Positions 49,400-51,933 of a stretch of 64,000 nt of DNA are shown here, piece after piece. Source of the DNA: Stutzerimonas stutzeri (GTDB lineage: Bacteria > Pseudomonadota > Gammaproteobacteria > Pseudomonadales > Pseudomonadaceae); contig NZ_JAMOII010000020.1 in NCBI RefSeq assembly GCF_024448985.1, positions 1-64,000 of the forward strand, given 5' to 3'. The position numbers were made by a program, and so were the translations under genes. The notes under the pieces were generated by a model, which was not told the origin of the DNA, did no database searches, and saw nothing but the letters and a program-made list of their open reading frames with translations. Each line of letters starts with the position of its first letter. The first letter of the stretch is position 1.

Positions 49400-49723
49400 C
49401 TACCGCGCGTTTTGCAACCAGATGATGCCGTCGCGCTCGGTGCTTGGCAGTGCTCGCAGGGCTTGACCGGCACAGGGGCCGGCAACGCACTCGCCGCTGT
49501 CGATGAGAAACAGCGCGCCGTGGGTGGCGCACTGGATCAGGCTGCCGCTGCTGTCGAGAAACCGGTCCGGAACCCATTCCAAGGGTATCCCTCGATGCGG
49601 ACAGCGGTTCTCGTAGACATGCACGATGTCGTCCTTGCGTATAACGAGCAGGCGCTGCCCCTGTATTTCCAAGCCTTTGCTCTGGCCTTCGGCGATATCG
49701 CTCGCGGCGCATAATCGAATCAT
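49400..49723 (-). CDS. Small Rieske [2Fe-2S] protein
   Basis: This is a 107-residue soluble protein with a complete Rieske site: C-P-H-R-G-I-P-L-E-W and, 20 residues later, C-A-T-H-G-A-L-F. It resembles Rieske ferredoxins that serve oxygenases or act as stand-alone electron carriers. It is not a respiratory Rieske protein, as it lacks a membrane anchor. No oxygenase lies nearby, so the partner is unknown. The start at 49723 (MIRLCAASD) was preferred over longer in-frame starts that lack similarity. Confidence 0.82.
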   Translation of the reverse strand: MIRLCAASDIAEGQSKGLEIQGQRLLVIRKDDIVHVYENRCPHRGIPLEWVPDRFLDSSGSLIQCATHGALFLIDSGECVAGPCAGQALRALPSTERDGIIWLQNAR

Positions 49724-49756
49724 GTTTCCCCCTGTCAGCCCGGGATTATCACCTAG

Positions 49757-49906
49757 GTGCTCGGATTGGTGGAGAACCAAGACGGATTAAAGGTGGCGGA
49801 CCGGCTGGCTGGCTTTTCCTTCGCCCGAGTGGCTGCAGCGGGCATGATCGGGTTCGTTGGGTTGCTGGTGCCCCATTTGGGAAGTCTGTTGGTCGGCCCC
49901 GGTTAA
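49757..49906 (+). pseudogene. Remnant of a FecCD-type heme/iron permease (phuU-like)
   Basis: A plus-strand open frame of 49 codons contains GMIGFVGLLVPHL followed by LLVGP, which closely matches the FecCD/BtuC permease signature (G-x-I-x-F-V-G-L-x-V-P-H, then LLVGP). The rest of the permease, over 270 residues, is missing on both sides. In P. aeruginosa the heme importer genes phuSTUV lie directly upstream of phuW, in this position and strand, so this is best explained as a scrap of phuU. The frame directly upstream of phuW also contains RHPGKGNPFAIAP, possibly a tail of the ATPase phuV; that is much weaker. Confidence 0.6.
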
Positions 49907-50026
49907 TCGGCGCGCCCGGGCAGTGCTGTGTGCCGATTCGCTGAGATCGGTATTCGGCCTCGATGTTTGATACAACGGCACCCTGGAAAGGGAAACCCGT
50001 TTGCCATTGCACCTGAGGAGCTGTCG

Positions 50027-50899
50027 ATGCGAATTTTGTTACCTATTGCCCTGATCTTGCTGGCGGCGTGTCAATTGCCCCCGCCATTGCCGTCCTGGCA
50101 GAGCCCCGAGGGCCTGGCGCATTCTGATCTTGGTCAGATCATAGATCTGCGCAGCGGTGAACGGCTTTCGGCGCAGCAGCTGGTGAGCGAATTGGCCGAT
50201 GTCGATCAGGTGTTGATTGGTGAGCGCCATGATAACCCCGACCATCACACGCTACAGCGCTGGCTTCTTCAGGCGCTGGCTCAGCGGCGCGAGCAGGGCA
50301 GCCTGCTATTGGAAATGCTAAACCCGGATCAACAGAAGCGCGTCGCGCGCGTGCAGGCGTCTATCGGGCGAGGGCAATGGCCGGCGGATCTGCCCGAAGC
50401 GCTTGCATGGCAAAGGGGCTGGGATTGGGACCTTTACGCGCCAGTAGTCGAGTATGCCTTGGCGCAACCTTATCCGATGCTGGCGGCGAATCTCGATCGC
50501 GCTGAGATCACCGATATCTACCGCCGCAAACCGCAGTTGAGGGGGCGCGCAGCTGCGGAGCCAGTGCAAAAGAAACTGCTAGCGCAGATACGCGCTTCTC
50601 ATTGCGACATGCTACCTGAGGCCCAGCTGCCGCCAATGCTGGCCGTGCAACAGCAGCGTGACCGCCGGATGGCCGAGCAACTGAACGCGGCCCCGAAACC
50701 TGCGGTGCTGCTGGCAGGAGCCTTTCATGTGCGACGTGACCTCGGCGTGCCCTTGCATCTTGCGAATCGTGACACGAAGGTCTTGGTGCTCGTCGAGGTA
50801 GGCGAGACCTTGAGTGCGGAGCAGGCTGATTTCGTTTGGTTCACACCGGCCCAGCCGCAGCAGGACCATTGCGCCGAGTTTGGTAAGAAATTGCAGTAG
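50027..50899 (+). CDS. phuW: ChaN/PhuW-family heme-related lipoprotein
   Basis: This is a 290-residue lipoprotein with signal peptide MRILLPIALILLAAC (Cys15). The ChaN domain begins with DVDQVLIGERHDNPDHH, has the central LLLEML and WDWDLYAPVVEYA, and ends with AVLLAGAFHVRRDLGVPLHL. Campylobacter ChaN binds heme as a dimer; PhuW is the last gene of the P. aeruginosa phu operon. TGAGGAG precedes the ATG. Here no intact phuSTUV is upstream, so the partner importer is missing. It is convergent with prrF, as in P. aeruginosa. Confidence 0.88.
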   Translation: MRILLPIALILLAACQLPPPLPSWQSPEGLAHSDLGQIIDLRSGERLSAQQLVSELADVDQVLIGERHDNPDHHTLQRWLLQALAQRREQGSLLLEMLNPDQQKRVARVQASIGRGQWPADLPEALAWQRGWDWDLYAPVVEYALAQPYPMLAANLDRAEITDIYRRKPQLRGRAAAEPVQKKLLAQIRASHCDMLPEAQLPPMLAVQQQRDRRMAEQLNAAPKPAVLLAGAFHVRRDLGVPLHLANRDTKVLVLVEVGETLSAEQADFVWFTPAQPQQDHCAEFGKKLQ

Positions 50900-50939
50900 C
50901 TGTTTCAGGCAAGCGAGCCGGAATGCATTTATCTCAGGC

Positions 50940-50966
50940 AAAAAAAGACCCGGCAAGAGCCGGGTC
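50940..50966 (-). terminator. Rho-independent terminator of prrF
   Basis: An 8-bp perfect GC-rich stem with an AAGA (minus-strand TCTT) loop is followed by seven T residues on the minus strand. Confidence 0.92.
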
Positions 50967-51051
50967 AAAACCGTGATTAGCCTGATGAGGAGATAACCTG
51001 AAAGTCCGACTGCCTGGCCTTCCAGCTTACCAACTGATCTCTCGATCAGTG
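50940..51051 (-). ncRNA. prrF: PrrF-type iron-responsive small RNA
   Basis: This is an sRNA of about 112 nt on the minus strand, matching P. aeruginosa PrrF1/PrrF2 in sequence as I recall them. It has a 5' hairpin (ACTGATCGAGAGATCAGT), the conserved target-pairing core TTATCTCCTCATCAGGCTAA, and a terminator stem GACCCGGC/GCCGGGTC followed by seven T residues. PrrF is made when iron is low and, with Hfq, represses mRNAs for iron-rich proteins such as sodB and TCA enzymes. The flanking genes phuW and cbpA are those of P. aeruginosa, but only one copy is present. Confidence 0.92.
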
Positions 51052-51056
51052 GTGCT

Positions 51057-51085
51057 AATAGTAACAATTCTCATTTCGACGTCAA
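51057..51085 (-). promoter_or_regulatory. prrF promoter overlapped by a Fur box
   Basis: On the minus strand, TTGACG (51085-51080) and TACTAT (51063-51058) are 16 bp apart and place the start at the 5' end of prrF. A Fur-box-like sequence AATGAGAATTGTTACTATT (51075-51057) covers the spacer and -10, and its core TGAGAAT-T-GTTACTA resembles the 7-1-7 Fur consensus. This gives iron-dependent repression. Confidence 0.85.
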
Positions 51086-51135: not shown

Positions 51136-51933
51136 TTAAGCGGGGATTGGCAGGCGCAACTGCGTGACTTCCTTGTTGAGCAGGTCGATCCGCCTGGCCA
51201 TGCTTTCTATCAGGCTATGCGCGATCTTTGGGTTGTTCTGCATCAAACCGAGGAACTGATACTTGGGAATCAGCATGACGGTGCAGGCGGACGTCGCAAC
51301 GACGCTCGCGCTGCGCTTTTCGTGAGTGAACACAGCCATCGCGCCGAAGATTTCATCGCGCTGGACATCACCGACCTTCTGACCGTCGACAATCGCTTCG
51401 GCGTGACCCTCGATGATGATGAATACATTGTCTGCATCGTCGCCCTGACGGATCAGCTCTTCGCCAGCAGCAAAATGCTGGAATCCGGTCGTCGGATGAA
51501 TTTCGGGCTGCTTCAGGCGGGCCAGCGCATCGGATAACAGTACCGTCTGGCCGATGAGATATTGCGTGAAGAGCTCCTGTCGGTGCTGATCGGCATGGAT
51601 ATGTTGAAACACCGCGCTGCGTGAATACGGAATCAGGCGGATCGATTCGTCGCTGCGATAACGACAAGCCGGCAAGTCGATGCCTTGGCGAAGGCCGAGA
51701 AGATCCCCTTCCTGCATATAGAACAACGGTCGCTCATCAACGAGGGCATGCAGTAGCCCGCTCTCGATGATGAACAGTTGCTGTTCGGGCAATTCATCGG
51801 TGAAATCGTCAGAACCCTTGATTTCGATAGGTGGGGCAGTAGGTGCCAGGCCATCCAGAAGTTGCGCGGGGATCCCCTGCAAGCGGTTGATCAGCTGATC
51901 GGCATAAGCCGGTTGTTCCCCGAGTAGATACAT
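51136..51933 (-). CDS. cbpA: Cyclic-nucleotide-binding-domain protein CbpA
   Basis: This is a 265-residue protein with a C-terminal cNMP-binding domain (FAAGEELIRQGDDADNVFIIIEGHAEAI, then DEIFGAMAVFTHEKRSASV, the phosphate cassette region). The N-terminal half is a degenerate second domain of the same kind. There is no DNA-binding helix-turn-helix, so it is not a CRP-type activator. P. aeruginosa CbpA binds cAMP, is controlled by Vfr, and lies beside prrF just as here. Confidence 0.87.
   Translation of the reverse strand: MYLLGEQPAYADQLINRLQGIPAQLLDGLAPTAPPIEIKGSDDFTDELPEQQLFIIESGLLHALVDERPLFYMQEGDLLGLRQGIDLPACRYRSDESIRLIPYSRSAVFQHIHADQHRQELFTQYLIGQTVLLSDALARLKQPEIHPTTGFQHFAAGEELIRQGDDADNVFIIIEGHAEAIVDGQKVGDVQRDEIFGAMAVFTHEKRSASVVATSACTVMLIPKYQFLGLMQNNPKIAHSLIESMARRIDLLNKEVTQLRLPIPA

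Follow-up and report, generated by a model that had tools for sequence, protein, structure and literature searches.

How does phuW, the gene closing the heme-uptake locus phuSTUVW of Pseudomonas aeruginosa, come to stand open in Stutzerimonas stutzeri behind little more than debris of the importer genes, and what would it still do there? The question is raised by a stretch of 64,000 nucleotides (contig NZ_JAMOII010000020.1, positions 1 to 64,000 of the forward strand; assembly GCF_024448985.1), here called the window, in which a preliminary description had noticed a 49-codon open frame between a Rieske gene and phuW. With high confidence, this interval can be regarded as the deletion scar of a phuU-phuV pair, i.e. 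of the inner-membrane permease and the ATPase of a heme-type ABC importer. The arrangement used for comparison, Rieske - phuU - phuV - phuW, is that of the two genomes closest to the window's (G041 and G024), and the anatomy of the scar is described against L009 (S. stutzeri 28a39, the nearest relative and the same as genome G041), the phuW of which, the closest named record, is 93% identical to that of the window. The features of the locus are the following:

49400..49723, minus strand: gene for a Rieske [2Fe-2S] protein, bordering the scar on the left; PF00355 with 58.1 bits, 97% identical in L009.
49724..49828: former Rieske-phuU leader; agrees with L009 8056-8162 at 96 of 107 columns, with 2 gaps.
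49757..49906, plus strand: 49-codon frame; joined form in 0 of 55 other genus genomes searched.
49828..49829: deletion junction 1; 818 bp gone compared with L009 (8163-8980), 1 bp shared (A).
49829..49901, plus strand: phuU scrap with the FecCD motif region, 73 of 1038 bp; 68 of 73 identical to L009 8981-9053, PF01032 E 1.6e-5.
49900..49902: deletion junction 2; 819 bp gone compared with L009 (9054-9872), CG shared.
49902..50016, plus strand: phuV scrap, left over from the final 118 bp of the ATPase gene; agrees with L009 9873-9990 at 94 of 118 columns.
50027..50899, plus strand: phuW, with an open frame for a ChaN-type lipoprotein of 290 aa; PF04187 with 158.5 bits (cut-off 27.7).
50939..51085, minus strand: PrrF small RNA; RF00444 with 145.7 bits (gathering score 90).
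51136-51933: CRP-like (cbpA-like) gene; cNMP-binding domain (Pfam).

Both phuW and PrrF are thus located where the preliminary description had placed them, as supported by PF04187 and RF00444, and this PrrF gene is the only copy found in the window's genome. The cbpA gene claimed to follow phuW is present as a gene with a cNMP-binding domain, here called cbpA-like.

In order to place the locus in its genus, the Rieske-phuW site was surveyed in 56 genomes, one per species, with the site of G022 being pieced together from two contigs. Since the Rieske gene is present in all 56 genomes and dsbD was seen in 55 of them (it is missing from G019, where the contig measures 3665 bases), both neighbors are ancestral in the genus. 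The dsbD gene of G012 (L162) matches in two pieces, and the cbpA-like gene of G040 (L121) matches over residues 196-264 only. Three states of the site were found, namely phuT-U-V-W in two genomes (G009 and G025), phuU-V-W in 40, and phuW without full U and V in 14 (G000, G001, G002, G003, G011, G012, G013, G014, G015, G038, G045, G049, G051 and G055), with scraps of U and V at the site in G045 and G000. The phuUVW form (G041, G024 and 38 others) shares its neighbors and their order with the window, the leader having been aligned with those of five of these genomes; in contrast, U and V are full-length there, and the window is shorter by 1642 bp compared with L009.

Protein searches with reference PhuU, PhuV, PhuT and PhuS, all bearing the expected Pfam domains, gave PhuU at E 1e-60 in 51 of the 56 genomes, or 50 if a 43% match in G038 is not counted, PhuT at E 1e-20 in eight and HemS in six, the absence of T and S being less sure in G019 and G022, which are 73% and 71% complete; heme oxygenase (PF01126) was found in five. 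Six genomes have S-T-U-V elsewhere, with phuW still beside Rieske, and in G045 a TonB-dependent receptor adjoins this set. PhuU, PhuT and HemS are all uncounted in another group of six (G000, G003, G013, G015, G038 and G051). G038 carries a further set with 43, 26 and 39% identity to PhuU, PhuT and PhuV, so that it may have a related importer after all; G055 likewise has such a set, beside its own phuSTUV. A quick tree of 58 rows, built on phuW and four other genes of the site, places the window's genome together with G024 and G041, both of the phuUVW form, with an SH-aLRT of 100, and on it the character "UV present or phuW only" changes at least eight times, G019, L017 and L020 being represented by less than half of the columns and several branches being long, including those of G001, G052, G025 and G012. 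The states lacking U and V would represent losses rather than gains.

For the window's genome as a whole, the search for another heme importer turned up none of the phu type: there were no matches for PhuU at E 1e-60, PhuT at E 1e-20, HemS, heme oxygenase PF01126 or hemP, and no phu importer composed of R, S, T, U and V was found. The idea of a further phu importer at another place in the genome was rejected, since no PhuU, PhuT or HemS was found. The TonB-hemin model TIGR01785 gave 21 matches, none of them over the cut-off of 316.85; the best receptors reach about 202-205 bits, and the two best score higher on siderophore or ligand-gated-channel models, also under the respective cut-offs. A search for HasA is of little use here, as no control genome gave a match. 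Five FecCD matches are present in the genome, comprising the scrap itself, two beside NRPS and siderophore-type genes, one of btu type and one weak match, which is the permease of a zinc-type ABC set named by reading its proteins. The full-length FecCD genes belong to a btuB/btuF/btuD-like set, in which binding protein and ATPase were confirmed by Pfam, and to a siderophore-type set beside NRPS genes, both named from reading the proteins. With its frame open over 50027-50899 and no phu-type importer found in the genome, phuW is the open orphan it had been taken for.

The phuW product matches PDB 2g5g (titled putative lipoprotein), presumably ChaN, with E 5.2e-26 over residues 37-270, gave no NCBIfam family at E 1e-10, and has near its N-terminus MRILLPIALILLAACQ, in which a candidate lipobox was read by eye against the consensus. 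In Pseudomonas toyotomiensis JCM 15604, phuW (L020 10001-10874) is matched by two segments that lie in different frames and may be frameshifted. When the window was compared with G041 and G024, its phuW branch showed 7 nonsynonymous and 34 synonymous changes (ratio 0.07), compared with 5/13 (0.12) for G041 and 7/14 (0.16) for G024, and with 11/55 for dsbD, 1/4 for Rieske and 5/15 for the cbpA-like gene on the window branch; such three-way counts rest on three genomes and are unrooted, with the stem common to G041 and G024 going to the window's count, and part of the window's branch may predate the loss of U and V. By these counts, phuW is under purifying selection in the window. Moreover, an open phuW was found in every one of the 56 genomes; among them are the 14 lacking full U and V at the site as well as the six with no counted phuU, phuT or HemS, of which one has the 43%-identical set. 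The survival of phuW is real and general among the genomes examined.

Could phuW nevertheless be a relic on its way out, idle without its importer? This explanation competes only with the phuW part of our reading, and it can draw on the pairs of genomes lacking phuU. In G038-G051 and G003-G015 (with phuU, phuT and HemS counted as present in none of the four), dN/dS of phuW amounts to 0.14 and 0.25, compared with 0.07 and 0.14 for dsbD and 0.16 and 0.16 for Rieske; in both pairs constraint on phuW is weaker than on dsbD. The window's genome also holds no heme receptor over the cut-off for PhuW to serve, and a motif conserved ahead of phuU has been disrupted in the window. This motif, CTYTTATNCT, occurs in 37 of the 40 phuUVW genomes (it is missing in G007, G016 and G044), compared with 0.01 genomes on average after shuffling, and in two of the 16 other genomes, window included, namely before phuW in G001 and G013; in the window (49810-49825) it is disrupted by a 2-bp deletion near 49815. 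Against a relic stand the ratio of 0.07 with 34 synonymous changes as well as the frame being open in all 56 genomes, including the 14 without full U and V at the site, and we consider this alternative unlikely.

The fact that phuW has stayed open and under selection rather suggests that it works independently of the importer, a possibility already raised in the preliminary description and supported by the selection on phuW and by the other genomes. PhuW would then act in the cell envelope independently of PhuUV, e.g. as a putative heme-binding partner of an outer-membrane receptor, which is the role we lean towards. According to one report, the PhuW homologue CjrA of E. coli is found in the inner membrane fraction and lies beside TonB-like and receptor-like proteins (PMC7412671), while a table in another lists PhuW as 'Possible PhuR auxiliary protein' (PMC7857532). 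The match to 2g5g over residues 37-270 links the window's phuW product to the ChaN/CjrA family; unlike those systems, however, phuW of the window has no adjoining TonB, receptor or working ABC gene. Among the literature matches listed, PhuW receives passing mentions only, and none of those listed for phuW, ChaN and Stutzerimonas heme or phu is a paper on this loss of U and V.

The way in which the importer genes were lost can be read from the comparison with L009, where Rieske, phuU, phuV and phuW follow one another and the distance from the Rieske match to phuW is 1946 bp. In the two closest genomes this distance, 1946 bp (G041) and 1944 bp (G024), is filled by U and V. The 818-bp loss in the window extends from just before phuU into phuU and the 819-bp loss from inside phuU to late phuV; together with 5 bp in small gaps, these losses account exactly for the missing bases (818 + 819 + 5 = 1642 = 1946 - 304), and the ribosome-binding site of phuW is untouched by both. 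Because the deletion ends share only 1 bp and 2 bp, the second within an imperfect 11-bp repeat, illegitimate recombination or slippage would be a plausible mechanism, and the deletions would have occurred in the window's lineage after its parting from G041 and G024.

The preliminary description had proposed instead a single deletion of phuR, phuS, phuT and phuV together with the greater part of phuU, reducing the importer to a permease fragment alone. A longer locus did exist in the wider family, with S-T-U-V-W in a row in L020 (Pseudomonas toyotomiensis) and T-U-V-W in L017, L018 and L019. The window shares with the phuSTUVW locus of Pseudomonas the order of phuW, PrrF and the CRP-like gene, and its U and V scraps stand in the right order before W; compared with that locus, it lacks R, S and T, and U and V are down to 73 and 115 bp. 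However, there are two junctions instead of one, neither deletion reaches beyond leader-phuU-phuV, and phuV has kept its tail. In addition, the interval is taken up by U and V in G041 and G024, and U-V-W without T at the site is the state of 40 of the 56 genomes. A single event is thereby contradicted for the window's lineage unless G041 and G024 lost R, S and T separately, and we regard it as very improbable. Since these two genomes carry only U-V-W, R, S and T had gone from the site earlier and were not removed by the event that left the scar. An independent multi-deletion scar of U and V beside an open phuW is found in G045 (L160); unlike that of the window, it has longer remnants with a Rieske-phuW gap of 776 bp, and phuSTUV is present elsewhere in the genome. 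Three blocks of it can be matched to G046, one to the leader with the beginning of U, one to an early part of U and one to the later half of V.

As to the 49-codon frame, it is present between Rieske and phuW as first described (49757..49906, plus strand, GTG start, 49 aa, translation VLGLVENQDGLKVADRLAGFSFARVAAAGMIGFVGLLVPHLGSLLVGPG), and its identification as a FecCD permease scrap holds for its second half. Residues 23-47 match Pfam FecCD (PF01032) with E 1.6e-5 and 24.5 bits, a score slightly below the cut-off of 26.5 bits that covers only profile positions 233-257 of 311. Far stronger evidence comes from the DNA, in which bases 89-162 of the query 49740-50035 show 93% identity with phuU of G041 and G024 (E 2.5e-25 and 2.7e-25). 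The PhuU of L009 is itself FecCD with 303.7 bits (Pfam). The permease match is well beyond chance, and by descent this part of the frame is FecCD permease, derived from phuU; with 73 of the 1038 bp of phuU left, the scar encodes no full-length FecCD membrane permease. The first half, in contrast, is leader: the frame is made up of 24 codons of old non-coding leader, 24 codons of phuU and one junction codon, and the stop sits in phuV DNA. It is thus a chimera, a chance open frame over the leader, the phuU scrap and the start of the phuV scrap. In the latter, which differs from L009 by three 1-bp deletions and 21 substitutions, no PhuV/HmuV nucleotide-binding domain was found, only the last 118 bp of the gene being represented, whereas the stretch before phuW (50017-50026) is identical to L009 at 10 of 10 positions.

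One might still regard the frame as a small functional gene in its own right, as it is open with a GTG start and keeps the FecCD motif in its phuU part. When 56 genus genomes were searched at the DNA level with 49740-50035 (at most 13 candidates scored per genome), matches were obtained in 28 of them, the window's own included, while a full-length, joined match was found in the window's own genome only; G041 and G024 match as three separate pieces. The check on conservation in relatives was thus negative, the joined form being absent from the matches of all 55 remaining genomes. Furthermore, half of the frame is former non-coding leader, the conserved upstream motif has lost 2 bp, and HLVRLL of L009 has become HLGSLL. 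A gene of its own is therefore hardly to be expected here.

Decay is also what the substitutions in the scraps point to, in agreement with the decayed phu locus first described. In the likewise unrooted three-way comparison with G041 and G024, 23 window-specific substitutions were counted in 189 aligned bases, in addition to 3 lost bases. Of these, the phuV part carries 19 in 115 bases (5/39, 6/38 and 8/38 by codon position) and the phuU part 4 in 74 (2/25, 1/24 and 1/25), with 14 of 126 changed at codon positions 1 and 2; in G041 or G024, the same regions show 0 to 2 changes per position class. No preference for the third codon position is seen, and such codon-blind substitutions combined with small deletions are a pattern of decay. 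The age of the deletions can be given only roughly, because the phuU scrap has changed less (4/74) than the phuV scrap (19/115). That the scar arose through an error of sequencing or assembly, the genome being a draft in 52 contigs and each species being represented by one genome, is extremely unlikely, as 23 window-specific substitutions and 3 single-base deletions go beyond a misjoin and the assembly has a completeness of 99.98 and a contamination of 0.08.

The phuU-phuV pair whose scar is seen here is itself peculiar in Stutzerimonas. Both genes stand beside phuW in 40 of the 56 genomes without PhuT or HemS being found, e.g. in L114 (G041) and L115 (G024). Between phuUVW genomes, dN/dS of phuU and phuV lies at 0.02-0.15 in seven of eight pairs and at 0.23 and 0.25 in the nearly identical pair G010-G004; U and V are hence constrained, though T and S were not found. 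At a second site, on the minus strand of G012 (L147 8273-10215) and G049 (L148 8207-10011), U and V likewise occur where S is lacking and T is not complete, G012 having kept residues 229-291 of T as a scrap, and adjoin ctaB/SCO-like genes (named by reading). The TonB-dependent receptor and S-T-U-V of G045 lie at a place similar to this second site. Without PhuT, PhuUV may use another binding protein or a non-heme substrate. It is conceivable, if somewhat doubtful, that PhuUV of Stutzerimonas works without PhuT and PhuS and that, independently, the envelope function of PhuW outlives the transporter.

As pseudogene decay, the UV scar is ordinary; more unusual is the wide retention of phuUV, under constraint, in the absence of PhuT, and a constrained permease-ATPase pair lacking its binding protein in most genomes examined is perhaps unexpected to the specialist. 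The value of the scar lies in a natural experiment, in which the UV state has changed at least eight times on the quick tree of the genus and phuW is always open (56/56). Hence, genomes with phuW but without U and V would allow the function of PhuW to be tested without the importer.
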